64,000 nt of DNA from Acidobacteriaceae bacterium dw_441 (lineage in GTDB: Bacteria; Acidobacteriota; Terriglobia; Terriglobales; Acidobacteriaceae): positions 1,302,001 through 1,366,000 of the forward strand of contig JAAVVA010000001.1 of NCBI GenBank assembly GCA_018449715.1, in the 5' to 3' direction. Below the pieces are notes generated by a model. That model was not told where the DNA came from. It saw only the letters and a program-made list of their open reading frames with translations, and ran no database searches. Positions 37,339-53,983 of this stretch are shown here, one piece after another (positions within the stretch are counted from its first letter, which is position 1; every line of letters starts with the position of its first letter). The translations under genes were made by a program, and so were the position numbers.

Positions 37339-37767
37339 TTAGTTGGGCAAAGGCAGCTTCGAATTTGGACTTTCTTGCTGGGGAGCATGGATAGAGGAAA
37401 GCAGCCTGACGTGCGTGTAAAGCAGACCGCTGATAGGCCTGGCCATGCGGGGAACAACCATGCTGGCAAAGAGGCTTGTGCTCAGAGAGCAGAAGAGGGT
37501 GATCAGGATGACCTGCGCGAAACGTTCCGCTGGAAGCGACGAATCGACCTCCTGGTAGTAGGGACCAACGGCTTCGGCTCTTTGCACGCGTGGCCTCAGG
37601 TTCTGAACGAAGATCGAGCGGAGGCCATCCCACAACAACAGAAGGGAAGCACCGCGGCGAGATTCTTCATCGAAGATCCAAAGCATCTCGGCTCCGAATT
37701 CGGTTCGGAAGCTAATAGGGTGGAGGCGAAGGAAAGCGCGATAAACAATGCGTAGTGGTGAGCTCAT
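37339..37767 (-). CDS. Small membrane protein resembling a permease-prefix domain, PadR-linked
   Basis: 142 aa. The N-terminus (YRAFLRLHPISFRTEFGAEM) resembles the prefix domain found ahead of FtsX-type permeases in PadR-regulated loci, where the pattern is L-R-L-x-P-x-x-F-R-x-x-x-G-x-E-M. One TM helix follows (about residues 84-106), then a Pro/Ser-rich tail. No permease domain is attached, so it is a stand-alone version or a cut-down relative. Its ATG overlaps the PadR stop by 4 bp. It may help assemble or regulate the ABC transporter (inference). Confidence 0.65.
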   Translation of the reverse strand: MSSPLRIVYRAFLRLHPISFRTEFGAEMLWIFDEESRRGASLLLLWDGLRSIFVQNLRPRVQRAEAVGPYYQEVDSSLPAERFAQVILITLFCSLSTSLFASMVVPRMARPISGLLYTHVRLLSSIHAPQQESPNSKLPLPN

Positions 37768-38111
37768 GCGTTGTGCGGGCTCCCTTCGCGAAGGCGTAGA
37801 CGAGCTTCGAGAACGATGCTTTGCATACGCTCGATCTCGGAGGTGAGCGCCGCCTTGCCAGCGGTTGTAATGCGATAGAAGCGGCGGTCGTCGTCTTTGG
37901 CACGGGCCGAGCGCGGGGCGTCGATCACGAGCTTCTGGTCCATGAGTTTTTTGAGGTTGTCGTAGAGCGTGCCCGGACCAATGCGATAGCTGTCGTTGGA
38001 CTGACGGGCAATCTCCTGAATGATGCCGTAGCCGTGCAGGTCCTCGCGTGCCAGCGCGAGGAGGATGTAGAGGGCCGCCGAAGAGAGTGGTGGTTGTGCG
38101 TCGTGTTTCAT
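37764..38111 (-). CDS. PadR-family transcriptional regulator
   Basis: 115 aa, the size of a minimal PadR protein. The winged helix is clear: LYILLALAREDLHGYGI, then GPGTLYDNLKKLMDQKLV and RRFYRITTAGKAAL, with a C-terminal dimerisation helix. PadR proteins repress nearby transport genes until an effector binds. It is the first gene of the operon padR-prefix protein-ATPase-permease, with a 4-bp overlap to the second gene. A direct repeat just upstream could be its operator. Confidence 0.95.
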   Translation of the reverse strand: MKHDAQPPLSSAALYILLALAREDLHGYGIIQEIARQSNDSYRIGPGTLYDNLKKLMDQKLVIDAPRSARAKDDDRRFYRITTAGKAALTSEIERMQSIVLEARLRLREGSPHNA

Positions 38112-38117
38112 CGTCGG

Positions 38118-38141
38118 AATCCGACTATATCGAAATCCGAC
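38118..38141. promoter_or_regulatory. Direct repeat upstream of padR gene, possible operator
   Basis: AATCCGAC occurs at 38118-38125 and again at 38134-38141 (16-bp period), 7 bp upstream of the PadR start. With TATATCGA between the copies it could form an autoregulatory site. The assignment rests on position and repetition only. Confidence 0.4.
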
Positions 38142-38159
38142 CAGGCGTGCAAGATTTTT

Positions 38160-38585
38160 TCAGGAAGCCGAGAGACGAGCGTGCGCGACGGCACCGAGCG
38201 GGTCTTGCCATTCGCATTGGGCAAGTTCAAGAAAGCGGCCAATGTCGTTTGAAAGCATAAAAGGAAGCATCTGTTCAATGCGGGCGCGTGGCCAGTTCCA
38301 CCAGCGGATTTTTAGCAGGTCTTCGATGATGTGCCTGGAGAACCGGAGGCGTGCGACCTTACCGGGATTACCCACAATGACCGCATAGGGAGGAACATCA
38401 CGCGATACAACAGCATGTGCTCCGATGACAGCGCCATCGCCCACGGTGACTCCCGAGAGGATGGTTGCCCCGGAACCGATCCAGACATCGTTGCCGATGA
38501 GGACGTTGCCCCTGGACTCGGGCAGACGATTGATCCCGGGGATTTCCGGCCAGTCGAGGCTTGAGGCGAAGGGATAGGTGGTCAC
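38160..38585 (-). pseudogene. Truncated CatB-like xenobiotic acetyltransferase
   Basis: An open frame of 141 codons begins with GTG at 38585 at the family's internal TTYPF motif and continues through left-handed beta-helix hexapeptides ([30 protein letters not shown]), [12 protein letters not shown] and the C-terminal helix. Full CatB/Vat proteins are about 210 aa; the missing N-terminal third holds the catalytic His that lies just before S-T-Y-P-F. An in-frame TGA sits two codons upstream and no N-terminal remnant is visible. It is most likely an inactive fragment, though a short product could still be made. Confidence 0.65.
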
Positions 38586-38859: not shown

Positions 38860-40338
38860 ATGCAAACCCTGGAGTCATCACCAAGGATCGCTATGGGAGA
38901 AAGCTCCCCACGATCGGACGCGTCCACGCATAACCGAACCAATGATCCACGCTGGCAGCTTGCCCTGCGGATCGCCGCAAGCAGCAGCCTGGGGCGTTCG
39001 CGCCTGATGGTGGACTTCCTGCTCTATGTCGTCGATCGCCATATCAACGACCGCAGCGACGAGATCACAGAACAGCAGATCGGAGTTCTTGTCTTTGGCC
39101 GTCCCGAGGGCTACGACACGAACGAAGACAATATCGTTCGCAGCTATGCCCGTAATCTGCGCAAGCGCATCGAGGAGTATTTCGCAAAGGAAGGTGCGGA
39201 GGAAAGCCTGCTGCTGGAGATTCCTCGAGGCGGGTACGCCCCGATCTTCTCCTCAAAGCCCGCGGCGGGCAGTCTTGCTTCCAGCGAACCAGTAGAAGCC
39301 TCGTATGCCGACAAACCCTTAATCCTAAATAAGGATGAGGCTGCGAATACTTCTGACTCCCCGGACAATCCTACCGTAGAGAAGCAAGCCGAACAGAAAG
39401 TCGAGCAGCATTCTGAGCGGTCATTTTTCTCCGGGACTGCGACCGGTTGGCTCCACAAGGTCGCAGAAGCCGTTCGGAGGCGCTCTGCCAGTGTCGCACT
39501 GGCTACGGGGCTCATTCTGGGGGTGCTCGTTTCCTCCTTATTTCCAAAGACATGGCTAAAACGCATCATGGCGTCTCCTGCCGAAATAGCGTCAAAGAAC
39601 CTTTGGTCGCAACTCTTCAGCAGCAAAAGCGATACTTTTATCGTTCCCTCTGACGATGGCCTGATCATTATGCAGCGTCTTACCGAGAGACCGGTTCCCC
39701 TGGCCAGTTACCTCAATGGGAGCTATCGCAACCAGATACGAACCGACAGCGATCCCGGCGCGGCCGAACTTCTGAAGCTTGGGGGGCGGCGCTATACCAG
39801 CGTGGTGGACCTCGATCTAGCCTCGCGCCTGGCACAGCTGAGCGAGGTCGTTCCGCAGCGCATGGTGATTCGCTTTGCCCGCGACCTTCGCATGGACGAC
39901 CTGCGGGACGGCAATGCGATCCTGATCGGCTCTATCGAGGCAAACCCCTGGATCGAGTTGTTCCAGCCGCAACTGAACTTCCGTTTCAGCATCCATGCCG
40001 ACAACGACCAGCCTTCAGGGATCGTGAATGTTCATCCTCGTCCAAACGAGGGACTGATCTACGGTACTCCCGGACAGGACCACACCTACGGGCTTATCGC
40101 CTACCTGCCGAACCTCAATTCCACCGGGCACGTCCTGATTGTGGCTGGTCTGAACACCGCCGGCACCCAGGCCGCCGAAGCCTTCCTCCTCACTCCTTCG
40201 TTGATGGACCCGACCCTGCAACGCGCCAGGTTGCCGGGGGGAGGTTTCCAGCCGTTCGAACTGCTGATCGGAGCCGGTGCGGTAGCTGCGAATGCATCCG
40301 CCCCGCAAATCGTACTGGAGCGGATTGGACCCTCTTAG
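38860..40338 (+). CDS. Membrane-spanning regulator with winged-helix-like N-terminus, paralog 1
   Basis: 492 aa. Residues about 30-140 form a cytoplasmic domain with the pattern QQIGVLVFGRPEGYDT, NIVRSYARNLRKRIEEYF and EIPRGGYAPIF, seen in Acidobacteriota regulators as a winged-helix-like module. A low-complexity linker leads to one TM helix (about 208-228, VALATGLILGVLVSSLF). The C-terminal domain (about 245-485) should be extracytoplasmic and contains LWSQLF, DTFIVPSD, NAILIGS, NPWIELF, YLPNLNSTGHVL and GTQAA. The regulator at 46660-47979 has the same layout and motifs. It lies 343 bp upstream of an Oar-like TonB receptor, which it probably controls in ToxR fashion (inference). Confidence 0.75.
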   Translation: MQTLESSPRIAMGESSPRSDASTHNRTNDPRWQLALRIAASSSLGRSRLMVDFLLYVVDRHINDRSDEITEQQIGVLVFGRPEGYDTNEDNIVRSYARNLRKRIEEYFAKEGAEESLLLEIPRGGYAPIFSSKPAAGSLASSEPVEASYADKPLILNKDEAANTSDSPDNPTVEKQAEQKVEQHSERSFFSGTATGWLHKVAEAVRRRSASVALATGLILGVLVSSLFPKTWLKRIMASPAEIASKNLWSQLFSSKSDTFIVPSDDGLIIMQRLTERPVPLASYLNGSYRNQIRTDSDPGAAELLKLGGRRYTSVVDLDLASRLAQLSEVVPQRMVIRFARDLRMDDLRDGNAILIGSIEANPWIELFQPQLNFRFSIHADNDQPSGIVNVHPRPNEGLIYGTPGQDHTYGLIAYLPNLNSTGHVLIVAGLNTAGTQAAEAFLLTPSLMDPTLQRARLPGGGFQPFELLIGAGAVAANASAPQIVLERIGPS

Positions 40339-40450
40339 TTTTCGCTTCTTACGAAAGCGGTAACTCCTCTTTAATGAATTCCTTTTTCTGTACTGTCTGT
40401 TCACTTCCGCAACAGCTATTTGTGGACTGAAAGTACAGCTTTTTACTCGT

Positions 40451-40548
40451 GTGTTCCACCGTGTTCGACCTCTGGGTGCGTCCGTGAATATTAGATGAAT
40501 CAGTCAGGATAAGTTATTTATTTGCAGCGTTTACACGCGGGTGTTCGA
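40451..40548. promoter_or_regulatory. GTGTTC-type repeats upstream of TonB receptor 1
   Basis: Within the 343-bp gap 40339-40681, a tandem 10-bp repeat (GTGTTCCACC then GTGTTCGACC, 40451-40470) is followed 80 bp later by GTGTTCGA at 40541, flanked by two copies of TTTACACG. The same GTGTTCGA occurs once before the regulator gene (38772). These are candidate binding sites for the adjacent regulator. No gene was seen in the gap. Confidence 0.4.
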
Positions 40549-40681
40549 AGTTTACACGGCCACGGACACCTTGTTTCGGCAGTTCCCTCCCCCCATGATC
40601 GAACCAATCCCAAGAGCAGGCGGATCAACTTCAGTCTGAACCACCTGTGACTGCGCAAAATCCCTTTGAGGCCAAAATCCC

Positions 40682-43600
40682 ATGACGAATTTCTGGCGTT
40701 CCTTTGCTCGTCAACAACGAAAGCGGTATCTCTATCCGGTTTCGTTGATGGCATGCATGCTTCTATCCTCGGCGGTGCCCTCGCTGGCACAGTCCGATCT
40801 CTCCGGAGTCTCAGGCACTATCACCGATCCATCGGGCGCGGTCGTTCGAGGAGCGGCGGTGACCGTAATTGATGAAGCAACCCGGGCGATCCATACCGCC
40901 ACAACCAACGATTCCGGCTACTACACTATCCCGAGCCTTTCGCCCGGTCGCTACACCATCACCGTCAGCGCGTCGAACTTCCAGAAGACGACCAGCAGCG
41001 GCAACAACCTTGATCCGAACGTATCCACGACGGCTAACCTGCAACTCCTGATCGGCAGCAACAGCGAGGTCGTGCAGGTTTCGGCGTCGGAGACGGCGGT
41101 GCAGACGGAAAGCACCGTGCTGGGCCGCGTCATCACGAGCAAGCAGGCGGAGATGCTCCCCCTCAGCGGCCGCAATCCCATCGGACTGGCCCTATTGAAG
41201 GCGGGCGTTACCAGTACCAGCGGTGACGTTTCCAAATTTTCGTTCAGCACCGGCCTCGGCGGACTGAACATCAACGGCGCCCGCGATCGTGACAACCTGG
41301 TGACCTATGACGGTGCAGTCGCGGTGCGTGTCCGTGCCAACGGTGATTCCACCGGCGTAGTCGATCTCGAGAATGTGCAGGAGGTTCAGGTTCTGGCGAC
41401 GAACTATCCGGCAGAGTATGGACGTTCCATCGGCGGACAGGTCCGCATCATCACAAAGTCCGGTACGGACAAGTTCCACGGTTCGCTCTACGAGTACCTG
41501 CAGAACCCCATTCTCAACGCCAATACCTGGCAGCGCAACCATAATACGGTGGTGAACAACGACCCGACCGTTCCCAGGATTTTGAAGTCGAACTACGTCG
41601 CTCCCTTCACCTATAACCAGTTTGGTTTCAGTGTGAACGGACCGTTGTATATTCCGCATGTCCTACCCAAGGGCAAGGTCTTCTTCCTTTACTCCGAAGC
41701 CTTCGTTCACTATCCCGGAACTGATAGCAAGACGGCGACCGTGCCGAATCCAGCCTTCCGCTCGGGCGACTTCTCCTCGCTCTCCACCCATATCCGCGAT
41801 CCCAAGGCAGCGGGCGACTGCGACCCGAAAACCGGTGGCCCTGGCTGCTTTCCGGGGAACATCATTCCGCAGGATCGTCTGAGCGCCAACGGCGTCGGCT
41901 TGCTTTCCATCTTTCCTAATCCGACACCAGGCTTCGGCACGAACGGAACAAATAACCTTCTGCAAATTGCAAAGCATCCTCAGAGCCAGCAGATTGACAG
42001 CGGAAACCTCGACATCATCCCGACGGACAAGGATTACATCCGTTTTCGCCTTACGCATTTTTACTACTACGAGGACAACCCGTTCTCCTCGGCCTATAGC
42101 GTTGTGCCGCGTATCTTCAACCGCCCGGCCCAGACGGCCTCGCTCGACTGGGTTCGCAGCTTCAGCTCCAACACGATGAACGAAGTGCTGGTCACCGTGG
42201 CGCACAGTGCCGATCGTCTCTTTATCGACACCACCAGCGGCCTCTATGACCGCACGAAGTACGGGGTCAACTATCCGTACCTCTTCCCAGAGGGCAAGGA
42301 TCTTCCTAATAAGATTCCAACGGTTCAATTCTCCGAAAGTAACATCACCGCAATGGACGGTAGCGCTTACCCCTCGCACTCTCAGGGAGCTGTCTTCGAC
42401 TTTGCCGACACCTTCACCCGCATCATCGGTAACCACACGCTGCGCGCCGGTGTGCTGTATGAGCGTGCTCAATATAACGATTACGATCAGATTTCCGGTC
42501 AGAACAGCGTACCCGGGCAGACCAACAACCAGAACGGAAAGTTTGAGTTCTCCAATAAGAATAATTCGGGAACAGGTCTCGATCTCTCGGATGCCGCACT
42601 TGGCCTCTTTCAGAGCTACGCTGAAGTGGGTGCTCGCGCTGAAACCCCCTACCGCGCGAATATGCTCGACTTCTTCGCGCAGGACTCGTGGAAGCTCTCT
42701 TCCAAGCTGCATCTGGACTATGGTCTGCGCTACTCGATTACCCGCCCCTTCTACAGCCTTTGGAATAACATCGGCACCTTTGACCCGGCCTTCTACAGTG
42801 CGGCAAATGCAGTCAAGATTGACCCTAGCACAGGTAATCCCATCGCTGGCTCGGGTGATCCTCTGAACGGTACGGTACTCTTCGGCAACGGCTTTACCGA
42901 CAGCGCCAAGGCGCACGTCGCTCTGGCAAACACCGGCGAGGCGGACCGTCTCTTCCACAACCTTCCTCGTGGTTATATCGACGTCCACTACACGACCTTC
43001 CAGCCGCGTGTCGGGCTCTCGTATGCCTTCAATTCAAAGACCGTCCTGCGCTCCGGCTTCGGTCGTTACATGAGCCGTCAGGGTGTCTCCGACGGCGTGT
43101 TCGAGGGCGGTGCGCCTCCGCTGCAATCCTATGCTGGAATCAGCGGCGGTAACGCTGACAACCCAGGCGGAGGTTCTCAAGGATCGTTCCCGACTATCTC
43201 CGGGCGCGTGGACCGCAGCTCGCCACAGCCTGAATCTTACGTGTGGAATCTCTCGGTCGAACGCGAGCTTCCCTTCAACACTGTGCTCGGCGTGGCCTAT
43301 GTGGGACGTCGCGGTCTGCACGGTCAGTTTCAGGCGAATATGAACCAGGCTCCGATCGGTTCAGGATACAAATCCGGAAATATCAACCTATATCGTCCCT
43401 ATGCAGGTTACGGCCCCATCACGATGGTGTGGCAGGGTTCCGGCTCTGTTTACAACGGCCTGCAGATCGACCTGAATCATCGCTTCCAGAAGGGCTTGAG
43501 CTTCGGTGTGGCTTACACCTACGCTCACGCTAATGACTGTGGATCGTTCCAGAAGAACTTCCTTCCGAACTTCTACGATTCGAAGTACCTATGCGGCCCT

Positions 43601-44152
43601 GCGGACTATGACATTCGCCAGGCCCTTACCGCCAACGCGATTACCGAAATTCCCTTCCACAGCAACAGCCGTCTGGCAAATGAGTTCCTTGGCGGATGGC
43701 AGCTCTCGCAGATCTATAACTTCCAGACGGGTATCCCTGGATCGGTTACCGGATCGGACATCGCCGGTGTTGGAACCGGTGGTGGCGCGCAGTTCTACTC
43801 CATCGTCGATGGTGCCCACCTGGGAGCTCAAGGAAAGTTCTCAACAGGATCTGACCAGAACTTCTGGTTCAACCCTGATGCATTCGTGGCTCCTGAGAAA
43901 GCCACCTTTACCTCGCAGCACAACCGCAACATCCTTCGCGCTCCTGGCGTAATGAACTTCAACGCCGGTCTGCAGAAGAGATTTTCGACCTTCGAGAATC
44001 AGTACTTCACCTTCCGTTTCGAAGCTTTCAACTTCCCGAATCATCCGAACCTGTCGGCTCCGGATGTAAACCCAACCAGCAAAACCTTTGGACGTGTCAT
44101 CAGCAAGACCGGTCAGCGTTCCATGCAGGCCAGCCTGCGCTACACCTTCTAG
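40682..44152 (+). CDS. Oar-like TonB-dependent receptor with carboxypeptidase-regulatory domain, copy 1
   Basis: 1156 aa. A signal peptide (residues about 20-40, ending SLAQS) is followed by a carboxypeptidase-regulatory-like beta-sandwich (about 42-125: GTITDPSGAVVRGAAVTV, SGYYTIPSLSPGRYTITV), a plug domain (about 140-270, with VQEVQVLATNYPAEYGR and SGTDKFHGSLYEYL) and a long beta-barrel ending in Phe (LRYTF). Receptors of this family import or bind large ligands at the outer membrane; the ligand is unknown. It follows the membrane regulator and precedes the GH92 mannosidase, suggesting that oligomannosides or glycoproteins are handled here (inference). Confidence 0.92.
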   Translation: MTNFWRSFARQQRKRYLYPVSLMACMLLSSAVPSLAQSDLSGVSGTITDPSGAVVRGAAVTVIDEATRAIHTATTNDSGYYTIPSLSPGRYTITVSASNFQKTTSSGNNLDPNVSTTANLQLLIGSNSEVVQVSASETAVQTESTVLGRVITSKQAEMLPLSGRNPIGLALLKAGVTSTSGDVSKFSFSTGLGGLNINGARDRDNLVTYDGAVAVRVRANGDSTGVVDLENVQEVQVLATNYPAEYGRSIGGQVRIITKSGTDKFHGSLYEYLQNPILNANTWQRNHNTVVNNDPTVPRILKSNYVAPFTYNQFGFSVNGPLYIPHVLPKGKVFFLYSEAFVHYPGTDSKTATVPNPAFRSGDFSSLSTHIRDPKAAGDCDPKTGGPGCFPGNIIPQDRLSANGVGLLSIFPNPTPGFGTNGTNNLLQIAKHPQSQQIDSGNLDIIPTDKDYIRFRLTHFYYYEDNPFSSAYSVVPRIFNRPAQTASLDWVRSFSSNTMNEVLVTVAHSADRLFIDTTSGLYDRTKYGVNYPYLFPEGKDLPNKIPTVQFSESNITAMDGSAYPSHSQGAVFDFADTFTRIIGNHTLRAGVLYERAQYNDYDQISGQNSVPGQTNNQNGKFEFSNKNNSGTGLDLSDAALGLFQSYAEVGARAETPYRANMLDFFAQDSWKLSSKLHLDYGLRYSITRPFYSLWNNIGTFDPAFYSAANAVKIDPSTGNPIAGSGDPLNGTVLFGNGFTDSAKAHVALANTGEADRLFHNLPRGYIDVHYTTFQPRVGLSYAFNSKTVLRSGFGRYMSRQGVSDGVFEGGAPPLQSYAGISGGNADNPGGGSQGSFPTISGRVDRSSPQPESYVWNLSVERELPFNTVLGVAYVGRRGLHGQFQANMNQAPIGSGYKSGNINLYRPYAGYGPITMVWQGSGSVYNGLQIDLNHRFQKGLSFGVAYTYAHANDCGSFQKNFLPNFYDSKYLCGPADYDIRQALTANAITEIPFHSNSRLANEFLGGWQLSQIYNFQTGIPGSVTGSDIAGVGTGGGAQFYSIVDGAHLGAQGKFSTGSDQNFWFNPDAFVAPEKATFTSQHNRNILRAPGVMNFNAGLQKRFSTFENQYFTFRFEAFNFPNHPNLSAPDVNPTSKTFGRVISKTGQRSMQASLRYTF

Positions 44153-44176
44153 GACTGCGCAGAAACTACTCAACCG

Positions 44177-44210
44177 GATGGGAGTGAAGATATTTGTCTT
44201 CACTCCCATC
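44177..44210 (+). terminator. Stem-loop between TonB receptor 1 and GH92 genes
   Basis: A perfect 14-bp stem (GATGGGAGTGAAGA and its complement) with a six-base loop lies 25 bp after the receptor stop. The T-tract is poor (TGTTCATT), so it may attenuate rather than fully end transcription into the mannosidase gene, or protect the upstream mRNA 3' end. Confidence 0.65.
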
Positions 44211-44293
44211 TGTTCATTGATGTGAAATATGCCGGGAAGAACATCTCCTGCGGCAAGAACAAGTACCACGACACAGAAAGGCAATCTCTCCTG

Positions 44294-46600
44294 ATGCGTC
44301 AACGGCGTTTCCTTCTTCGCGCACTTCCCTTCCTGCTCATTCTGCCCACGAACTTCACGACTACCTCTATCGCGCAGACGGCTGTAACTAAGTCCGCCGT
44401 AGTGGATTACACACGTAACGTCGATCCCTTCATCGGAGTGGACTGGGGCGGCAATACCTTCATCGGCTCGACAGTTCCCTTCGGAATGCTGAAGGTCGGC
44501 CCCGACATGGAAACCTTCGATGGCCGCCGCTCCGGCTTCGGATATTCGAGCTACGGCAACATTCTCGGCTTTTCGCATCTGCATCTCAGCGGCGCGGCGG
44601 GCAAGTATGGAAACATTCTTGTAGCTCCAGTAACTGGCTCGCTCGATATCGCCGACATCAAATCGCCTCGCACTGACGAGATCGCTCGACCGGGCTATTA
44701 TGCCTCGACGCTCACGCGCTACAACGTGCGCGCGGAGCTTACCAGCAGCCGCCGCGTGGGCTTTCATCGCTACACCTTTATCAAGGGGGGAGACTCCCAT
44801 ATCACCGTAAACCTCGCTCATGCTCTTGGGCTTGGCACCGGGCGCGAGTCGCAGAACTTTCTCGGAGCCGAGGCTCACATCCTCTCCAACCGCGAGGTGC
44901 AGGGCGTAGCACGCGTCCGCGGCGGATGGAACATGGGCGGCGAGTATCGTGTCTTCTTCCACATGCAGCTCGACACTCCCGCAACCTCCGTGCAGACATG
45001 GACGGGATCGTCGCTGTCGCCGGAGCATGATGCAACGGTCGCAGAGAGCAAACCTATTGGCGCGACCTTCGATCTTCAGACGAAGCCGGGCCAGGTGGTG
45101 CAGGTGAAGGTTGGCATCTCCTTCATCAGCGCGGAGCAGGCTCACCAGAATATTCAGGCAGAGATTCCCGCATGGAACTTTGAGGCCGTGCGTCGCGCCA
45201 ACAATGTTCTTTGGAACGCTGAACTCGGCAAGCTGCAACTCAGCGGCGAGAGCGACAAGCAGCGACGCGAGCTTTACACCGCGATGTATCACATCATGAT
45301 GATGCCCGTGGATCGCACCGGAGAGAACCCTCTCTGGACCTCGAACGAGCCGTACTACGACGACTACTATGCCATCTGGGACACCTATCGCACCTCGAAC
45401 CCTCTGCTCGGCCTGATCTCACCCGAGCGTGAGCGCGACATCGTTCGTTCGCTGGTCGACATCTACCGTCACACCGGCTACATGCCCGATGCTCGCAGCG
45501 GCAACGACAACGGACGCACACAGGGCGGTTCTAACGCGAACGTCGTCGTGGCCGATGCATACGTGAAAGGCATCACCGGCATCGACTACAACACTGCGCT
45601 GCAGGCGATGATTCACGATACCGAAGTGCCTCCGCAGAATGCGCAGAAGGAAGGCCGTGGCGGCCTGAAAGACTACAACGAACGCGGCTACATCACCACG
45701 GCTGACGAACGCGCAGGCTCGCGCATCGTGGAGTACTCCTACGACGATTTTGCGATTGCCGAGGTCGCCTGTGGTCTTGGCCAGAAGGAGCAAGCTGCGC
45801 GTGCTCTGGCTCGTACGCACAACTTCGAAAACCTGTGGGACCCGAACATGACGGCGATGGGCTTCAAGGGCTTCCTTCGTCCGCGCAACCCCGATGGTTC
45901 ATGGGCCGCGCCCTATCTTGTCGTGCGCGGAACGTGGCCTGACTTCATGTACGAAGGCGACATCTGGACCTACTCGCTTTATGCTCCGCAGGACATGAAG
46001 CACTTGATCGAGATGGCAGGAGGTCCGCAGCAGTTCAACAATCGCCTGGACTTCGTCTTCGGACGCGGTCACTTCGATGTCGCGAACGAGCCCGGCTTCC
46101 TGATGCCTCTGCTGTACAACTACAGCGGTCGTCCGGATAAGAGCGCCGATGTCGTTCACCTTCTGCTGGAGAAGGCCTTCAGCGACACGCGTTCGGGAAT
46201 CCCCGGCAACGATGATTCAGGCGCGATGTCGAGCTGGCTTCTCTTCCAGACGTTGGGAATCTTCCCGGTCGCCGGTCAGGACGTGTATCTCATCAGCTCG
46301 CCTTCTGTTCCGGATGCCTCCCTGTCCCTTGGAAACGGAAAGCATCTGCACATCGTTGCGAAGGGCTTCGATCCGAACGGTCTCAACCGCTACGTTCAAT
46401 CCGCAACCCTCAACGGTCAAGAGTTGAAGACGAACTGGTTCCGCCACTCGCAGATCAAGGATGGAGGAACTCTCGTAATGACGCTGGGTTCCGCACCTTC
46501 AACATGGGGAACGACGACACCGCCGCCTTCGCTGAGCGATAGCAACGCCAACATGTGTGTTCCGATTCCCGCTAGCAAGCCAAATCGTCCCACGAACTAA
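44294..46600 (+). CDS. GH92-family alpha-mannosidase, secreted
   Basis: 768 aa from the ATG at 44294; upstream in-frame residues would bury the signal peptide. The signal peptide is at residues about 3-28 (ending SIAQT). GH92 features: NVDPFIGVDWGGNTFIGSTVPFG, SYGNILGFSHLHLSG, the (alpha/alpha)6 core with YDDYYAIWDTYR, and the calcium-site/catalytic block GNDDSGAMSSWLLFQTLGIFPV. GH92 enzymes remove alpha-linked mannose, often alpha-1,2, from N-glycans and fungal mannan by inversion using Ca2+. It is likely periplasmic. It lies downstream of the TonB receptor and convergent with the second regulator. Confidence 0.93.
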   Translation: MRQRRFLLRALPFLLILPTNFTTTSIAQTAVTKSAVVDYTRNVDPFIGVDWGGNTFIGSTVPFGMLKVGPDMETFDGRRSGFGYSSYGNILGFSHLHLSGAAGKYGNILVAPVTGSLDIADIKSPRTDEIARPGYYASTLTRYNVRAELTSSRRVGFHRYTFIKGGDSHITVNLAHALGLGTGRESQNFLGAEAHILSNREVQGVARVRGGWNMGGEYRVFFHMQLDTPATSVQTWTGSSLSPEHDATVAESKPIGATFDLQTKPGQVVQVKVGISFISAEQAHQNIQAEIPAWNFEAVRRANNVLWNAELGKLQLSGESDKQRRELYTAMYHIMMMPVDRTGENPLWTSNEPYYDDYYAIWDTYRTSNPLLGLISPERERDIVRSLVDIYRHTGYMPDARSGNDNGRTQGGSNANVVVADAYVKGITGIDYNTALQAMIHDTEVPPQNAQKEGRGGLKDYNERGYITTADERAGSRIVEYSYDDFAIAEVACGLGQKEQAARALARTHNFENLWDPNMTAMGFKGFLRPRNPDGSWAAPYLVVRGTWPDFMYEGDIWTYSLYAPQDMKHLIEMAGGPQQFNNRLDFVFGRGHFDVANEPGFLMPLLYNYSGRPDKSADVVHLLLEKAFSDTRSGIPGNDDSGAMSSWLLFQTLGIFPVAGQDVYLISSPSVPDASLSLGNGKHLHIVAKGFDPNGLNRYVQSATLNGQELKTNWFRHSQIKDGGTLVMTLGSAPSTWGTTTPPPSLSDSNANMCVPIPASKPNRPTN

Positions 46601-46621
46601 GACAACCCGGTTTTACCTCGC

Positions 46622-46661
46622 AAGGCGCCGGAGGCTCTCTTCCTTCGGCGCTTCTTTTTTT
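46622..46661. terminator. Terminator between GH92 and regulator 2
   Basis: A 12-bp stem with one mismatch (AAGGCGCCGGAGG with CCTTCGGCGCTT, 46622-46653) is followed by a T-run on the plus strand. It terminates the GH92 transcript; the T-run overlaps the stop codon of the convergent regulator gene. Confidence 0.8.
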
Positions 46662-47979
46662 ACGAATACTGGCGACTGGCGATTACGCGAAGTCCCGTTG
46701 TGTGCGATCCCGCATCCAGGCTTACGGCCTCCAGCAACAACTCAAAGCTCTTCAGCGAGCCTTTGTTCGAAGCCATCATCTGATCGAGAATCCTCTTTCC
46801 TCCATCGTTGCGGATCATAAAGTCTGCGGCGGCCTGCGTTCCAGCACTGTCGAGTCCCTGCAGCAACAACACATGGCCCGTACCGCTCAGGTTCGGAAGA
46901 TAGACGATCGTGGCATAGGTCACGTAGGAGTGCTCCTGTTCTCCGCTCCTGTAAAGAGTGCTCTCTCCAGAGAGGGGATGGATGTTTTCAATCCAGTAGC
47001 GTCCGGCCTGAAGGTCGTTGTGAAACTGAAAATTCGTGTTCTTTGAAAACAGCTCGGTCCACGGATTACTGAAGTTCGAGCCGATCAGGATGGCATTGCT
47101 ATCGCGAAAGTCTTCAAAGCGCATATCGTGCGCGCCTCGTACGATAAACCGGCTGGGAACGACTCCTTTCAAATTCTTCAACTCGTTCGTAATGAAGATG
47201 CTCAACAGATTGGTGTAGCTTTCGCTGCGAAGGTATGACATCGCCAGACTTTTCTCCGATGCGCTTGAATGCCACTGGAGATATTCGGTCAGCGAAAATG
47301 TCCTGTGGTTTGCCTCCTGCATCACCACAAAGCCCGTATCGGATGGAACGATGTAGGTGTCGCGATTCAGGTTGAACATCTGGGACCAGAGAGGATTTGC
47401 CGCTTCTTCTTTGCGCGAATGCGAATCCGGCTGCCATTGCGCAAAACGATAAAGCCCTATGGAGTACAGGCACAGCAGGAGAAGGAAGAGTCCATAACGC
47501 ACGTGTCCTCGCGAAGAATCTCCCGTAATCGTTACAGGAGTATTGCCTTTGTCCTCTTCTCCGCGCCATGCGATTGGCGAAGCTGTCGCAACGTCCACCA
47601 TCGCAAACAGGGGAACATATCCTCCCCGTGGGATATCGATGCGGACAGCATCTCCGGCTCCATCGGTCGCGTAGTACTCCTGTAGACGCCTTCGCAGTTG
47701 CCTCGCATAGTTGCGGACAATGTTGTCGTCTCGCGTGTCGAAGTCTTCGCTGCGACCGAAGACATGAACCCCGATCTCGTGCTCCGGGATTCTTGCCGTC
47801 GGCTCCTCAATGGCGCGCCGACTTACATACAGAAGAAACGCCGACAGCAGAGGCGACTTATGGAAGAACCTGCTCTTTAATAGATGCTCGACGGCTTGCC
47901 GCTTTCGCGTTGCGTCCGGCTGCTCAGGCTCGCCACCCAGCGTCATAGCCTGCGCCACAGAAGTATCCTCACGGTTCAT
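46660..47979 (-). CDS. Membrane-spanning regulator with winged-helix-like N-terminus, paralog 2
   Basis: 439 aa. The layout matches the regulator at 38860-40338: an N-terminal module (EHEIGVHVFGRSEDFDT, NIVRNYARQLRRRLQEYY, IDIPRGGYVPLF), one TM helix (about residues 165-185, LFLLLLCLYSIGLYRF), and an extracytoplasmic domain with LWSQMF, DTYIVPSD, NAILIGS, NPWTELF, YLPNLSGTGHVL and GTQAA. It lacks the long linker of paralog 1. It is transcribed divergently from TonB receptor 2 across a 284-bp region carrying a repeated GTGTATACCC motif, the usual setting for a local regulator. No Shine-Dalgarno is obvious before the ATG. Confidence 0.75.
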   Translation of the reverse strand: MNREDTSVAQAMTLGGEPEQPDATRKRQAVEHLLKSRFFHKSPLLSAFLLYVSRRAIEEPTARIPEHEIGVHVFGRSEDFDTRDDNIVRNYARQLRRRLQEYYATDGAGDAVRIDIPRGGYVPLFAMVDVATASPIAWRGEEDKGNTPVTITGDSSRGHVRYGLFLLLLCLYSIGLYRFAQWQPDSHSRKEEAANPLWSQMFNLNRDTYIVPSDTGFVVMQEANHRTFSLTEYLQWHSSASEKSLAMSYLRSESYTNLLSIFITNELKNLKGVVPSRFIVRGAHDMRFEDFRDSNAILIGSNFSNPWTELFSKNTNFQFHNDLQAGRYWIENIHPLSGESTLYRSGEQEHSYVTYATIVYLPNLSGTGHVLLLQGLDSAGTQAAADFMIRNDGGKRILDQMMASNKGSLKSFELLLEAVSLDAGSHTTGLRVIASRQYS

Positions 47980-48040
47980 TGAGAGAACATTAACGATGGA
48001 AGATTAATCGGGCATAAACATTTTTTCTCAAGCGATACAG

Positions 48041-48174
48041 GTGTATACCCTCAGTGTATTTATGGCCTCACCAGGCCTCCCAATCCTTCAGACATCACAA
48101 ATTAATCTTGCTGCGGAATCTCGGAAGAAGAGCAACTATCTGCGAATTTACTTGAGAAATTCGCGTGTATACCC
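48041..48174. promoter_or_regulatory. Repeated GTGTATACCC in divergent promoter region
   Basis: GTGTATACCC occurs at 48041-48050 and 48165-48174 in the same orientation, inside the 284-bp spacer between regulator 2 and TonB receptor 2. The first copy could serve the regulator, the second the receptor. The rest of the spacer (47980-48263) holds no gene. Confidence 0.45.
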
Positions 48175-48263
48175 CTACGCGTGCCCTTGAAGAGCCATCA
48201 GCCTGCTCAATAACGTGAGGCAGAAGTACCGATCCAACCTACAAATCAACATCACTCCTGAAA

Positions 48264-51200
48264 ATGGCTGGTTCATTTATGACGCGTATTCGAGTTTGTC
48301 TTATCGTCCTCTGTCTGTTGATAGGGATGCCATTCCGGCTGTTCTCGCAAGCCGGAGTCACCTCCCTCTCCGGTCAGATCACCGACTCCTCCGGGGCTAT
48401 CGTGGCGGGAGCCACGGTCTCCGCTACGAACACAGGAACCCAGGTGCAGCGCTCTACGGTGAGCGACGACTCTGGCTACTATTCTTTTGTTGGACTCCCC
48501 GTCGGACAGTACGAGATCTCAATCCGGCAGCCCGGGTTTGAGAGCCAGATCATGAGGATCACCCTCGATCCCTCCTCGAAACAGAGAAGCGACTTCCACC
48601 TCAATGTAGCCAGCACCGTCAGCCAGGTCGAAGTGACCACGCAGGGTATCGAGCTGGCGCACGATGACGCTTCCATTGGCACCGTTATCGATAACCAGAC
48701 CATCCTCAGCACTCCGCTTTACCAGAGGAACTGGGACGATCTTCTTCGCCTCGTTCCCGGTGTGCAGATGCAGCGCTTCACGCAGCAGAGCGGCAGCAGC
48801 ACCTCGGGCAGCACCGGACTGTTCACCATCCACGGAATCGGCAACGAGCAGAACAACTACATCCTGGACGGTATCGACAACAACACCTTCTCCGAAAACC
48901 TGCAGGAGCTTTCGGCTTCGGCTTCGCGTCCCTCGGTGGACGTGATCGGTGAGTTCAAACTGATCAGCAACGCCTACACCGCTGCTTACGGACGCAGCCC
49001 CGGAGCCGTCATTGACGTCACCACCAAGGGTGGTACGAACCAGTTTCACGGCGTCGCCTTCGAGTATCTTCGCAACCGCATCTTCGACGCGAACGACTAC
49101 TTCACCAAGCGCTCGGGCCTCGACAAGCCCAAGGAGATCCAGAACCAGTTCGGCGGCAACTTCGGCGGCCCCATCATCAAGGATCGCCTCTTCGGCTTCT
49201 TCAACTACGAAGGCACCCGAATTCGCCAGGGCATCACGCGCATCTCGACGGTTCCTCTTGCCAACGAACGCGCCGGAGACTTCAGCCCCGCCGCCGCGGC
49301 AGCCAACGGAACCACCTACGCTACCATCATCAATCCACAGACACAGCAGCCGTTTGAGAACAACATCATTCCGGCGAATCTGATTGACCCTTACGGTCAG
49401 AAGATTATGAACCTGTTCCCGGTAGCGAACCAGCCCGGAACCGTGAACAACTTCGCCCGCACCGGATCGCTGGTCGACGACAACGACAGCTACAACGGTC
49501 GCGTGGACTGGAATGCCAGCAACAAGGACCTCGTCTTCGTTCGTTACACCTACTCCAACCGCATCCGTAACGTTCCCGGAAACTTCGGCGGCATCGCCGA
49601 TGGCAGCAGCACGTCGTCGTGGGGTGATTCGACGCTGAAGTCCTGGGCCGCCGTGCTGGGATGGACCCGCATCCTGAACTCGCACATGACGAACGACTTC
49701 CGCTTCGGATTTGTTCGCAACTATGCATACGACCAGCAGCAGCCCTTCGGCATGAACAAGAACTCTGACTACATCCCTGGAGTTCCGGATAATCCCGCAA
49801 CGCAGGGCGGCATTGGCTCCACCTCGTTTACCGGTCTGGCCAGCATCGGTTCGCCTGGCTATCTTCCCAAGCAGCAGGTCCCGCAGCAGTACCAATACAC
49901 CGATACGCTTTCGTGGAACCGCGGAAAGCATTTCGTCCGCATGGGCGTTGACGTTCGCGCCCCAATGCGTAACCTCTTCCGCGATCAGTCCGGCTCGAAC
50001 GGCGGACTCAGCTTCAATGGCAGCTTTACTGGAAACTCCTACGCCGACGGTCTTCTGGGTTACGTCTACCAGGGACAGCTCTCGAACGTTTACTTCGTCG
50101 ATCTGCGCCTGTGGATGGCCTCCGGCTTCATCCAGGACGACTGGAAGGTTACGCCGAAGCTCACGCTGAACATGGGGCTTCGTTATGACTTCGCCACGCC
50201 TCCTTACTCGGCAAAGAACCAGCTTGCGAACTTCGACCCCACAGGTGAAGGATCGCTAGTGCTTGCCAAGGCTGGCTCGCTGGGTGACCGCACACTCGTA
50301 AAGGTCAACACCAAGAACTTCGCGCCCCGCTTCGGTTTTGTTTACTCGCTCAACAACAACACAACCATCCGTGGCGGCTATGGCCTCTACTACCTCATGT
50401 TCAAGCGCAACGGCAGCGAGAACCAGATCATCCTCAATCCTCCGTTCGAGATTGCAGCTACTCTTAACTCGAAAGGCAATCAGCCTGCCTTCCTGCTGAA
50501 GAACGGCTTCCCTTCCACGCTGCTCGATCCCAACCATATCGATCTTTCCATCCAGCACATCCATGCCATGAAGTCCGATTCGCCTATGCCTTACACTCAG
50601 GCATGGAGCCTCGGCTTCCAGCGGCAGCTTCCCGGACAGATCGTCCTCACCGCCGATTACGTCGGGACCAAGTCCACGCACCTCGACATCATCAACGACC
50701 TGAATCAGTACATCCCAGGCACCAAGACATACCCCTATCCGAACTTTGGCTATCTCGAATACTCGCAGCCAGTCGGCATCAGCAACTACAACGGACTGGA
50801 GGCTTCGGTACAGCGCCGCTTCCATCGCGGTCTCTCGATCGAGTCCAGCTACACCTGGTCGCGAACTATCGAGACTTCGTATACTCACACCTTCGTCAAT
50901 ACGCTCAGCGGCTCTGATGTTCCGCAACGTGTGACACTGTCGGCGGTTTATGAGCTTCCCTTCGGCAAAGACAAGTCGATGGTCACGCATGGCATCGGCG
51001 CGGCTTTGCTGGGAGGATGGCGTACCTCGGGCATCTACACCTACTCAGTGGGACGGCCCTTCTCGGTTACGGTGGGCGGCAACTATAACTCGGCCATCGA
51101 TCAGTACGGCAACGGAACCTCGATGCCCATCATGACCGGAACGCCGAAGCTCCTCAAAAATGTGAACTGCTGGTTCTATTACTCCAGCAACAAAAACTGC

Positions 51201-51503
51201 CAGGCGGTTGCACCGGGAACAGCCGATGCCTACGCCCTGCCCACGCTCACCGATCCCAACGGAAACGGAAGCCTGAACACCCTGCGTGGTCCCAGCACGA
51301 ACGTCCTCGACTTCTCCCTGATGCGCGACTTCGACATCTACGAGAAGGTGAAGGTCCAGTTCCGCTGGGAGGTCTTCAACCTGACCAACAAGACGCTGTT
51401 TGCGCAGCCCAACGGTACCCTCACCTCGAGCAGCGTCGGTACGATCACCTCACTTGCCGGAGATCCTCGCATCATGCAGTTCGCTCTTCGGTTAAGCTTC
51501 TGA
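48264..51503 (+). CDS. Oar-like TonB-dependent receptor with carboxypeptidase-regulatory domain, copy 2
   Basis: 1079 aa. A signal peptide (about residues 8-29, ending RLFSQ) precedes a carboxypeptidase-regulatory-like domain (GQITDSSGAIVAGATVSA, SGYYSFVGLPVGQYEISI), a plug domain with NYILDGIDNNTF and VDVIGEFKLISNAYTAAYGR, and a beta-barrel ending FALRLSF. A second ATG at 48279 is an alternative start. It is divergent from regulator 2. Downstream, after a stem-loop, come a PLC-like phosphodiesterase and a histidine acid phosphatase, so its cargo may be a phosphorylated compound (inference). Confidence 0.92.
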   Translation: MAGSFMTRIRVCLIVLCLLIGMPFRLFSQAGVTSLSGQITDSSGAIVAGATVSATNTGTQVQRSTVSDDSGYYSFVGLPVGQYEISIRQPGFESQIMRITLDPSSKQRSDFHLNVASTVSQVEVTTQGIELAHDDASIGTVIDNQTILSTPLYQRNWDDLLRLVPGVQMQRFTQQSGSSTSGSTGLFTIHGIGNEQNNYILDGIDNNTFSENLQELSASASRPSVDVIGEFKLISNAYTAAYGRSPGAVIDVTTKGGTNQFHGVAFEYLRNRIFDANDYFTKRSGLDKPKEIQNQFGGNFGGPIIKDRLFGFFNYEGTRIRQGITRISTVPLANERAGDFSPAAAAANGTTYATIINPQTQQPFENNIIPANLIDPYGQKIMNLFPVANQPGTVNNFARTGSLVDDNDSYNGRVDWNASNKDLVFVRYTYSNRIRNVPGNFGGIADGSSTSSWGDSTLKSWAAVLGWTRILNSHMTNDFRFGFVRNYAYDQQQPFGMNKNSDYIPGVPDNPATQGGIGSTSFTGLASIGSPGYLPKQQVPQQYQYTDTLSWNRGKHFVRMGVDVRAPMRNLFRDQSGSNGGLSFNGSFTGNSYADGLLGYVYQGQLSNVYFVDLRLWMASGFIQDDWKVTPKLTLNMGLRYDFATPPYSAKNQLANFDPTGEGSLVLAKAGSLGDRTLVKVNTKNFAPRFGFVYSLNNNTTIRGGYGLYYLMFKRNGSENQIILNPPFEIAATLNSKGNQPAFLLKNGFPSTLLDPNHIDLSIQHIHAMKSDSPMPYTQAWSLGFQRQLPGQIVLTADYVGTKSTHLDIINDLNQYIPGTKTYPYPNFGYLEYSQPVGISNYNGLEASVQRRFHRGLSIESSYTWSRTIETSYTHTFVNTLSGSDVPQRVTLSAVYELPFGKDKSMVTHGIGAALLGGWRTSGIYTYSVGRPFSVTVGGNYNSAIDQYGNGTSMPIMTGTPKLLKNVNCWFYYSSNKNCQAVAPGTADAYALPTLTDPNGNGSLNTLRGPSTNVLDFSLMRDFDIYEKVKVQFRWEVFNLTNKTLFAQPNGTLTSSSVGTITSLAGDPRIMQFALRLSF

Positions 51504-51547: not shown

Positions 51548-51583
51548 CCTTAATCTCGACTGCTTCACGAAAAGGATATGCAG

Positions 51584-52636
51584 ATGCAGAGAAACAGGAT
51601 CGCCCCGCTCTTCGCCGCTCTGACCGTGCTTCCGCTGGCTGTTGCGGCCCATGCGCAGAAGAACGACCTCGACTTTCTGAACCATAACAAACCCATGCTC
51701 GACGCGCACAACTGCTATCCCTACGACGGCAAGTGGCAGGACCGCGTCAGCCGCGCTCTCAATTCCGGCTTCCCTGTTTCGATCGAACAGGACCTCGCCT
51801 GGTACTCCGACCCAGCGACCGGACAGGGCCGAGTCGTCGTCTCGCACACCCCGAAGACCACCGGGCAGGAGCCGACGCTGGAAGCTGACTTTTTTGATCA
51901 GGTCAAGCCGGTCGTCGAAAAGATCATCAAGGAGAACAAGAAGGAGCAGTGGCCCCTGATCGTTCTTCACTTCGATTTCAAGGACAATCAGCCCGCGCTG
52001 CACGAGGGCGTGTGGAACCTGCTCGGAAAGTATGAATCGTGGATCTCGACCGCGGAAAAGACCTCGGACCCGCACAAGCTCTCCCCCATCGAGCGCAAGC
52101 CAATCCTAGTGATTACCGAAGACAACGACGCGCAGGAGAAGGCCTTCTACGACCGCGTCCCCGTCGGCGGCAAGCTTCGCCTCTTCGGGTCGGCGCACAG
52201 CGCGGAGGCTCCGAAGAACCTTTCGCGCGCAGAGATGATGCACTGGGTTGCCACTGCCTCGCCGGAGACTCTTCTGACGGAGACACCGACGAACTATCGC
52301 CGCTGGTGGAACAACTCCTGGTACGCGATTGAAGAGGGCGGCCAGCACAACGCCGGCGAGTGGACCGAGCAGGACGAGAAGCGTCTGCACGATATCGTGG
52401 AGCGCGCTCACAGCATGGGCTTCTGGATTCGCTTCTACACGCTCGACGGATTCGATCCCGAGAAGAACCAGGGCTGGGGCGCCGGTTACAACTTCGGATC
52501 GCGTGAGGCGGTTCTTCCCCGCTGGAAGGCTGCGATCAAGGAGGGTGTGAACTTCGTCGCCACCGACCAGTATGAAGACTTCGCCACTATGGTTCCGCAG
52601 ACCTCGAAGTCGCTGCGGCCCGGCAACACGCATTGA
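51584..52636 (+). CDS. Secreted PLC-like (PI-PLC/GDPD-type) phosphodiesterase
   Basis: 350 aa. Two ATGs lie at 51578 and 51584; the second is chosen because AAAGGA is seven bases before it. Signal peptide at residues about 5-23 (AAHAQK). The TIM-barrel phosphodiesterase pattern is visible: a first His in LDAHNCYPYDG, Glu-x-Asp in VSIEQDLAW, a second His in VVVSHTP, and later strands LIVLHFDF and FWIRFYTLDGF. Such enzymes cleave phosphodiesters of phosphoinositides or glycerophosphodiesters. It is followed 60 bp later by a histidine acid phosphatase, so the two may act in sequence in the periplasm (inference). Confidence 0.85.
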   Translation: MQRNRIAPLFAALTVLPLAVAAHAQKNDLDFLNHNKPMLDAHNCYPYDGKWQDRVSRALNSGFPVSIEQDLAWYSDPATGQGRVVVSHTPKTTGQEPTLEADFFDQVKPVVEKIIKENKKEQWPLIVLHFDFKDNQPALHEGVWNLLGKYESWISTAEKTSDPHKLSPIERKPILVITEDNDAQEKAFYDRVPVGGKLRLFGSAHSAEAPKNLSRAEMMHWVATASPETLLTETPTNYRRWWNNSWYAIEEGGQHNAGEWTEQDEKRLHDIVERAHSMGFWIRFYTLDGFDPEKNQGWGAGYNFGSREAVLPRWKAAIKEGVNFVATDQYEDFATMVPQTSKSLRPGNTH

Positions 52637-52696: not shown

Positions 52697-53983
52697 TTGT
52701 TCTCTCTCAATCGCATTCTTCTTGTAGCCACTGCCGTGCTGGGCAGCCTTGCAACACAGGCTGTCCATGCCGCCGCCGCACAAACGGTAAACAACGACGA
52801 TGAGCTTCAGGGCGTCATCGTCCTCATTCGTCACGGCGTTCGCGCTCCCATCGAGACGGAGATCCGCAGCAGCGCCTACAACGCGCAGCCCTGGCCTGCG
52901 TGGAGCGTGCCGCAGGGTGTGCTCTCCGAACACGGAACCAAGGCCGCACAGCTTCTCGCAGAGTACTACCGCAACCGCTACTCCTCGCTTTTGCAGAATA
53001 TTTCCTGCGAGCACCCCGGCATCTACTCCGAGACGACCACGGCGCAGCGCACGATGGCCACGGCCAAGGCGATGCTCCCCGTGCTCGCGCCGAAGTGCAA
53101 CATCGAAGCGCGCCAACGTAAAGCAACCGATCCCAATCCACTCTTCTCTCCCGTCGCTGGCGCGGATCGTCAGAAGCTACAGGACGCTACGCTCGGAAGG
53201 ATCGGGCAGCAGTGGCCCTGGTTCGTCAACGCCTTCGCCGAGCCCATGGAAGAGATGCACCACGTCATGACCGTGTGCAGCGGCAAGGATTGCGACACGA
53301 GCAAGCCCGACTTCCGCACCGTCATGGTTCACAACGGAGTCGCCTCACCCCGCGACCCGAAGGTGGAGAACCCCGTTACCCTCGGAGCGGACTTCGCCGA
53401 GCACTTCCTTCTCGACTACACCGAGGGCAAGCCGATGGAGCAGGTCGGCTGGGGTCGCGTCGATCGCGCTCGCTTGAACCGCCTGATGCAGATGAACACG
53501 CTGTACCACGACTTCATGGGCCGCACGCCATACGTTGCTCAGGTCAACTCCTCCAACACGGCAGCGCGTATCAGCGATACGCTTAGCGCGATGGCGGGCA
53601 AGAGCACTCCCGGCGCGCTCGGAGCACCCGGCGACCATTTCTTCCTGCTCGTCGCACATGATGGCAACATCGCCACGCTGGGCGGTCTTCTCCGCATGGA
53701 GTGGCTGCTGCCCGACCAGAGCTTCAACGCGACACCTCCCGGCGGCGGCTATGCCTTCGAGCTGCATCGCAACAAGACCACCGGAGCCCAGACCGTTCGT
53801 GTCGTCTTCATCACCCAGACCCTCGACCAGATGCGCTTCCTCACACCGTTGCAGGGAAACGATCTTCCCTCCATCGCTCCCATCTTCCTTCCCGGATGCA
53901 GCGGCCCCGGACCGGACTACGCCTGCACCCTCGACGGTTTCCGCCAGATGGTCAGCTCCGTCATCCTCGCACCACACAACTGA
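52697..53983 (+). CDS. Histidine acid phosphatase (phytase/glucose-1-phosphatase type)
   Basis: 428 aa from a TTG at 52697 (no suitable ATG precedes the signal peptide, residues about 4-26). The catalytic RHGxRxP motif reads IRHGVRAP and the distal HD motif reads VAHDGNIATLGG; TPPGGGYAFEL also matches AppA-type enzymes. Cys residues in SCEHPG, TVCSGKDC and LPGCSG.. suggest disulfides in the periplasm. The reaction is hydrolysis of phosphomonoesters such as phytate or glucose-1-phosphate. It lies after the PLC-like gene and ends with a terminator. Confidence 0.92.
   Translation: MFSLNRILLVATAVLGSLATQAVHAAAAQTVNNDDELQGVIVLIRHGVRAPIETEIRSSAYNAQPWPAWSVPQGVLSEHGTKAAQLLAEYYRNRYSSLLQNISCEHPGIYSETTTAQRTMATAKAMLPVLAPKCNIEARQRKATDPNPLFSPVAGADRQKLQDATLGRIGQQWPWFVNAFAEPMEEMHHVMTVCSGKDCDTSKPDFRTVMVHNGVASPRDPKVENPVTLGADFAEHFLLDYTEGKPMEQVGWGRVDRARLNRLMQMNTLYHDFMGRTPYVAQVNSSNTAARISDTLSAMAGKSTPGALGAPGDHFFLLVAHDGNIATLGGLLRMEWLLPDQSFNATPPGGGYAFELHRNKTTGAQTVRVVFITQTLDQMRFLTPLQGNDLPSIAPIFLPGCSGPGPDYACTLDGFRQMVSSVILAPHN

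Follow-up and report, generated by a model that had tools for sequence, protein, structure and literature searches.

How are the many TonB-dependent receptors of a soil acidobacterium controlled? Acidobacteriota rank among the most common bacteria of soil, and the genome of Acidobacteriaceae bacterium dw_441 (4.92 Mb, 10 contigs) holds at least 65 receptors of the Oar type; two relatives have at least 61 each. Sigma/anti-sigma relays of the FecI/FecR type are a familiar case of regulation linked to such receptors. The question is raised here by a stretch of 64,000 nucleotides from this bacterium (assembly GCA_018449715.1, contig JAAVVA010000001.1, positions 1,302,001 to 1,366,000, forward strand), referred to below as the window, in which two paralogous proteins, regulators 1 and 2, each adjoin a large Oar-type receptor. 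We consider it probable that they are ToxR/CadC-like one-component transmembrane regulators, each of which would control the adjacent receptor operon and sense imported, often glycan, cargo.

Two paralogous proteins adjoin Oar-type receptors

Regulator 1 (492 aa; 38860..40338, forward strand) and regulator 2 (439 aa; 46660..47979, reverse strand) are open frames, and an original prediction made from the DNA alone had called them paralogues. BLASTP agreed, aligning their C-terminal parts with 38% identity over 251 columns (E 1e-50) and their N-termini with 40% identity over 133 columns (E 3e-27). The motifs listed in that prediction (LWSQ-F, IVPSD, NAILIGS, NPW-ELF, YLPNL-TGHVL and GTQAA) are present in both translations. 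The predicted architecture is shared. In regulator 1 a winged helix at about residues 27-134 is followed by a membrane helix at about 210-228 and a putative extracytoplasmic domain at about 244-492; the membrane helix of regulator 2 lies at about residues 162-180.

Receptor 1 (1156 aa; 40682..44152, forward strand) is co-directional with regulator 1 across a gap of 344 bp, and receptor 2 (1079 aa; 48264..51503, forward strand) is divergent from regulator 2 across a gap of 285 bp, as had been proposed. Both carry Pfam CarboxypepD_reg and OMP_b-brl_4, the latter at 560 and 770 bits; Plug scored above its cut-off in receptor 2 only. For the regulators themselves no Pfam family reached significance, the lowest E values being 0.038 and 0.25, and NCBIfam gave no match at E 1. 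It had also been suggested that the pairs work without a sigma/anti-sigma relay, and no sign of one was seen: no STN domain was matched in either receptor (Pfam, E 1), and no sigma or anti-sigma family was found among the neighbours scanned at thresholds of 1e-15 and 1e-5, the frames at 37339-37767 and 37821-38252 lying outside the scan. Kinase, receiver and AraC domains were not matched in the window proteins (Pfam, E 1).

Linkage to receptors in the genome and in the phylum

The original prediction had the module occurring twice. The two pairs stand, but the number understates the family, since in this genome the C-terminal domain (C-domain) profile retrieved 14 genes and the N-terminal domain (N-domain) profile 19. 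A receptor barrel lies within 1.5 kb of 11 of the 14 C-domain genes. Of 20,000 random placements of 1350-bp genes on six contigs, 3.1% fell within this distance of a barrel; because 65 of the 114 receptor candidates of the genome had been scored, the chance level was scaled to 5.4%, which gives a binomial probability of 3e-12. Five genes were counted as N-domain-only, two of them with a PD40 beta-propeller and one with a TPR C-terminus; a barrel was found within 1.5 kb of three and within 3 kb of four. L112, a locus counted in this class, later scored weakly with the C-domain profile (24 bits).

In a survey of 297 Acidobacteriota genomes that scored at most nine candidates per genome, the C-domain was found in 33, the host among them. 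Thirteen of the 33 belong to the same genus, 10 to other genera of the family, two to another family of the class and eight lie elsewhere in the phylum. A set of 127 genes was assembled from the survey matches, 17 regions of the host genome and six named contigs (14 host genes, seven from the named contigs and 106 others). Genes outside 370-760 aa, broken genes and six duplicates (133 reduced to 127) were left out, as were G275:C1:76090, G121:C4:114127, G281:C11:66544, G171:C1:510296 and G291:C88:49599. The 14 host genes of this set include L112 and omit the frameshifted C1:738910, and so differ from the 14 profile matches.

A receptor is present within 3 kb of 102 of the 127 genes, and of 12 of the 14 host genes. 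The linked pairs comprise 78 divergent ones (median gap 262 bp), 21 co-directional ones with the receptor downstream and three convergent ones. Orientation is thus compatible with co-control in 99 of 102 pairs (p 1e-9 against an assumed 75%). These results extend to other Acidobacteriota the linkage that had been expected there.

Two further loci of the family were observed. At L102:7911-9275 (C1:738910-740274 of the host genome) a paralogue is frameshifted after the winged helix and lies between two Oar-type receptors; judged by its sequence, it is a decaying or mis-assembled regulator. At L192:5809-9048, in a distant Acidobacteriota genome, two regulators of the family stand in tandem, with no Oar receptor in the fetched stretch.

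Candidate operators in the gaps

The gap between regulator 1 and receptor 1 holds two copies of CGTGTAAA, 21 bp apart (40530..40558, reverse strand), about 125-150 bp 5' of the receptor start. This spaced pair, a candidate operator, is unique in the host genome. In the gap analyses, from which gaps longer than 800 bp were excluded, the motif GTGTAAA, picked after the window gap had been seen, was present in six of the seven gaps of regulator 1 orthologues (8 copies, 0.2 expected from dinucleotide shuffling) and in 4 of 67 other gaps (Fisher 8e-6); the six gaps are not independent, since L024 and L025 are closely related and share an identical context, and the receptors of the window, L021 and L076 are related. 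The six include the gaps of L022 and L024, where the receptor has just 26% identity with receptor 1. It was absent from the seventh gap (L023) and from the region upstream of the regulator 1 gene in the window.

For regulator 2, candidate operator copies are found at 48041..48051 (copy A, AGGGTATACAC) and at 48165..48175 (copy B, GGGGTATACAC), both on the reverse strand, copy B about 90 bp 5' of the receptor 2 start. The corresponding motif RGGGTATACAC was derived from three gaps (regulator 2, L089 and L100) and is found three times in the 4.9 Mb genome: twice in the gap of regulator 2 and once in that of L100, whose regulator is the nearest to regulator 2 in BLAST among the 127 (38% identity).

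Direct repeats (9-base words, at most one mismatch) were scored in 71 non-redundant gaps. They occur at a lag of 11 bp in 11 gaps and at 21 bp in six, with 1.75 expected in each case. A step of 11 bp is the phasing of PhoB-type tandem binding. One motif common to all gaps was also considered; the best 7-mer, ATACCCC (11 of 74 gaps, 1.6 expected), resolved into subgroup motifs and was dropped. Common 10-mers rose clearly above background only where N-domain identity exceeded 0.7, so that plain homology can explain them.

The N-terminal domain and the membrane helix

That the N-terminus is winged-helix-like, as first proposed, is borne out by the predicted fold and by bridging sequences. The AlphaFold2 model of residues 31-130 (block means of pLDDT 90-97) has helices followed by a two-stranded hairpin. 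In VIA-align, chains that we take to be OmpR/PhoB-type effector domains filled the first 13 rows at Z 7.2-5.8, a range in which matches may reflect a common arrangement only; the best of them covered 91 residues at 3.5 Å, and the unrelated ScpB came next at Z 5.7. The Pfam family Trans_reg_C matched 2 of 16 aligned members, at best at E 0.25 and under the gathering cut-off, and a search of PDB sequences with the N-domain profile gave unconvincing matches. Two relatives bridge the distance. L107:6934-8229 in the host genome is hit by the N-domain profile and also passes the threshold of Trans_reg_C (31.2 bits, cut-off 26.2), and at L026:18979-20316 a clear Trans_reg_C domain (59.5 bits) fronts the same C-terminal domain. 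We take the N-domain as a divergent winged helix of the OmpR/PhoB type, to which the model and these relatives point.

The N-domain also heads proteins with a PD40 propeller or TPR repeats in the host genome (L109:7049-9247, L108:8075-9073 and L110:6862-8652); for both PD40 proteins, an Oar receptor barrel lies within 1.2 kb. It is common in Rhizobiaceae plasmid proteins (e.g. L215:3986-5791), several of which are annotated as adenylate cyclase, an annotation that may be wrong. A search of viral contigs with the N-domain gave one locus.

A single 19-residue segment with hydropathy of at least 1.6 was present in 123 of the 127 proteins and a second segment of at least 1.9 in none, in accordance with the one membrane helix that had been predicted; the helix is called from hydropathy. 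The segments of regulators 1 and 2 score 2.13 and 1.63. The N-domain would be cytoplasmic and the C-terminal domain extracytoplasmic.

The C-terminal domain

Behind the helix there follow a median of 261 residues (127 genes). This domain of about 250 residues matched no Pfam or NCBIfam family. Of 115 C-domains, 10 matched Pfam S_layer_C at E 0.1, the strongest at E 0.00095, and two matched BcsB, the stronger at E 0.014. These were the two Pfam families with the most members matched, every match being below the cut-off or weak. A PDB sequence search with a 16-sequence profile of the domain gave nothing at E 10, and in a PDB profile search the S-layer anchor of the methanogen M. voltae, 9fsa, came first at E 0.089.

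Matches to the predicted fold are likewise weak, none exceeding Z 7.9, with sequence identities of 8-23%. The best in VIA-align, for the second half of the domain, was to BcsB residues 558-723 (Z 7.9), with the N-terminal domains of GH84 (7.1), GH67 (7.0) and GH115 (6.6; all maxima) and 9fsa (Z 5.9; Foldseek probability 0.90, E 0.18) following. The domain is probably of the flavodoxin-like alpha/beta type, as far as the model can be trusted. To our knowledge, no regulatory role has been attributed to BcsB, to the N-terminal domains of GH67, GH84 and GH115, or to the S-layer anchor.

Exchange of receptor partners

Co-inheritance of regulator and receptor was considered as a general rule and rejected. 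Over 66 pairs the distances are uncorrelated (Mantel r -0.03, p 0.67), and in the host genome nine pairs gave r 0.20 (p 0.25); the pairs have therefore not simply been copied together, a result that goes beyond what the original prediction expected. Among close regulators (at least 45% identity) a receptor of at least 40% identity was kept in 14 of 30 pairs, against 8 of 1204 for regulators below 25%. Regulator 1 and that of L076 are 56% identical and their receptors 80%, one pair being co-directional and the other divergent. The regulators of L022 and L024 are 59-62% identical to regulator 1, their receptors 26% identical to receptor 1. Linkage to a receptor is nevertheless maintained. The simplest reading of these comparisons would be that regulators keep their sites and gain new receptor partners.

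Neighbouring enzymes and cargo

About 70 bp 3' of receptor 1 lies a gene for a GH92 family glycosidase (NCBIfam aman2_put; 44222..46600, forward strand). Receptor 2 is followed after 75 bp by a gene for a 352-aa protein (51578..52636, forward strand; no Pfam family at E 1e-5) and then by one for a histidine phosphatase superfamily branch 2 protein (52697..53983, forward strand), in a putative operon shared with the receptor. Further on, two consecutive proteins at 54835-58175 lie 5' of a tRNA-Ser at 58220, the first of them (54835-56427) with CarboxypepD_reg.

GH92 recurs in four of the seven loci of regulator 1 orthologues (window, L021, L022 and L023), L022 among them although its receptor is just 26% identical to receptor 1; it was not seen in the fetched stretches of L024, L025 and L076. 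Two of the four GH92 genes of the host genome have a regulator no more than 3.6 kb away (p ~0.003, this limit having been set post hoc). Six loci outside the window have GH92 within 2.6 kb of a regulator (L092:2552-4870, L130:9265-11502, L133:8452-10710, L134:4032-6251, L138:7885-10194 and L140:10371-12683), and in L092, L130 and L140 no Oar receptor was present in the fetched stretch. On the Granulicella tundricola plasmid pACIX901, the four loci examined combine a regulator, a protein with a TonB or CarboxypepD_reg label and a gene for GH1, an endo-xylanase, an alginate lyase or GH16, and each regulator there carries the annotation hypothetical protein. Enzymes 3' of linked receptors are varied and include glycosidases, a sulfatase, phosphatases and cytochrome c.

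An enrichment of glycosidases behind linked receptors was positive in early tallies; with controls from two more genomes and the remaining linked set there was no significant difference, and it was given up. Glycans are therefore likely to be cargo, though not the only kind; the phosphatase 3' of receptor 2 points elsewhere.

Discussion

We propose that the N-terminal winged helix would lie in the cytoplasm and bind sites in the gap 5' of the receptor gene and that one membrane helix would lead from it to the putative extracytoplasmic domain. The receptor would bring cargo into the periplasm, where the C-terminal domain may bind the cargo, the direct sensing that the original prediction had suggested, or its enzymatic product, and the regulator would then activate, or release, the receptor operon. 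At the GH92 locus, regulator 1 would probably respond to a mannose-containing glycan; at the histidine phosphatase locus, regulator 2 would possibly respond to a phosphorylated sugar or inositol phosphate.

Several results weigh against this proposal. For the N-domain, the VIA-align scores stay below 8, Trans_reg_C (PF00486) had no match at E 1 in regulators 1 and 2, Foldseek alone gave no match at E 0.001 (its best, at E 0.7, was to the effector domain of a response regulator), and profile-profile comparison aligned the second halves of the N-domain and Trans_reg_C at E 3e-4 with a probability of just 39%. Net charge before the helix is higher in 61 and lower in 42 of the 127 proteins, a slight bias with respect to topology. 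The C-domain model is poor over its first 100 residues (mean pLDDT 63) and becomes usable at about residue 100. According to the available part of one report (PMC11379886), BcsB contains two domains, one carbohydrate-binding and one flavodoxin-like; we believe that the match is to the flavodoxin-like one, so that it does not imply glycan binding. No receptor lies within 3 kb of 25 of the 127 genes, a few of which sit on contigs of about 4 kb (L176, L195). The gaps with GTGTAAA are not independent, and regions upstream of unlinked receptors also have repeats at 11 bp (5 of 60, 1.2 expected) and at 10 bp (6 of 60), the difference between linked and unlinked at 11 bp being without significance (p 0.29). 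As to cargo, GH92 was found in 14 of 122 regulator loci and 2 of 58 control receptor loci (p 0.10). Glycosidase and lyase families were found 3' of 19 of 82 linked and 7 of 62 unlinked receptors (p 0.08), and in the other genomes alone of 15 of 59 and 4 of 15 (p 1.0), all as family tallies, not per protein, among the families listed (25 of 28 and 25 of 34). In these tallies the first two genes 3' of a receptor were taken in the host genome, where receptors near N-domain-only regulators counted as linked, and the first gene only in other genomes; 47 of the 49 unlinked host neighbours were scanned, two of about 1200 aa being left out.

The C-terminal domain might instead contact an envelope structure (peptidoglycan, the receptor plug/TonB complex or another periplasmic protein) and so signal that the receptor is engaged or what state the envelope is in; its target would still be the receptor operon. 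This we hold to be unlikely. In its favour are the best sequence match among solved structures, which is the S-layer cell-wall anchoring domain 9fsa, and the variety of enzymes behind linked receptors. The free exchange of partners (Mantel r -0.03; regulators 59-62% and receptors 26% identical) argues against specific contact with one receptor, and so do the six loci with GH92 close to a regulator, in three of which the fetched stretch shows no Oar receptor, speak against the alternative.

Many paralogues of both families are present in the genome, and the linkage could be that of co-duplicated or co-mobile neighbours, with the regulator controlling something else. Such an origin is hard to credit, as regulator distances do not correlate overall with receptor distances, 99 of 102 pairs have an orientation suited to co-control, and the regulator 1 gap motif is found beside unrelated receptors as well. 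OmpR-type domains usually have an N-terminal beta sheet, and the model of the N-domain has two leading helices and no such sheet. Together with the occurrence of the domain in Rhizobiaceae plasmid proteins annotated as adenylate cyclase, this would suit an accessory or dimerisation domain of the winged-helix type that does not bind DNA. The domain swap with Trans_reg_C and the recurrent gap motifs make that a most improbable alternative.

A wider proposal can be made, though tentatively and with some doubt on our part. The family, expanded in this lineage, may be the Acidobacteriota counterpart to SusR and to hybrid two-component systems, with an undescribed glycan-sensing domain, in which sensor and operator travel as a unit, are re-plugged onto different receptors and so, in place of the receptor, define a nutrient circuit. 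The receptor-linked regulators and their candidate operators make it testable which receptor answers which polymer.

Comparison with known regulatory systems

The regulators share with the ToxR/CadC type a predicted DNA-binding domain, a single predicted membrane helix and a putative extracytoplasmic domain in one polypeptide with no relay (PMC10269533, as far as available). They differ from the proteins of that survey in an N-domain that, in regulators 1 and 2, gives no Trans_reg_C match and in a putative extracytoplasmic domain without a Pfam or NCBIfam match. The available parts of the survey describe raised numbers of transmembrane regulators in Acidobacteriae and a selection of proteins by Pfam DNA-binding models, and the word TonB is absent from its main text (PMC10269533). 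Since the N-domain mostly escapes Pfam, Pfam-based surveys probably miss these regulators and undercount the class in the phylum; with the family, transmembrane transcription regulators gain a putative sensor domain that has not been described. A search of open-licence literature gave no description of the family among the titles and abstract openings listed, nor in the available parts of PMC10269533, PMC3878776, PMC7074687, PMC3174227, PMC10564751 and PMC11379886.

FecI/FecR-type systems differ in that receptors 1 and 2 have no STN match and the scanned neighbours no sigma or anti-sigma family. The hybrid two-component systems of Bacteroidetes likewise place polysaccharide loci under a periplasmic sensor (PMC3878776, in the part available), and differ in their kinase, receiver and AraC domains, none of which was matched in the window proteins at E 1. 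SusR of Bacteroides, too, sits in the membrane, with its sensor in the periplasm and its DNA-binding domain in the cytoplasm, as is predicted for the present regulators; it is linked to SusC-type receptor operons, and direct-repeat sites have been predicted for it, as here. Its DNA-binding domain is C-terminal, whereas the predicted one of the present regulators is N-terminal, and the same source, in its available part, calls the SusR family unique to Bacteroidetes (PMC3878776). The putative sensor domain is undescribed, the architecture is the known one of ToxR/CadC-like proteins, and the logic resembles that of SusR with the domain order reversed.

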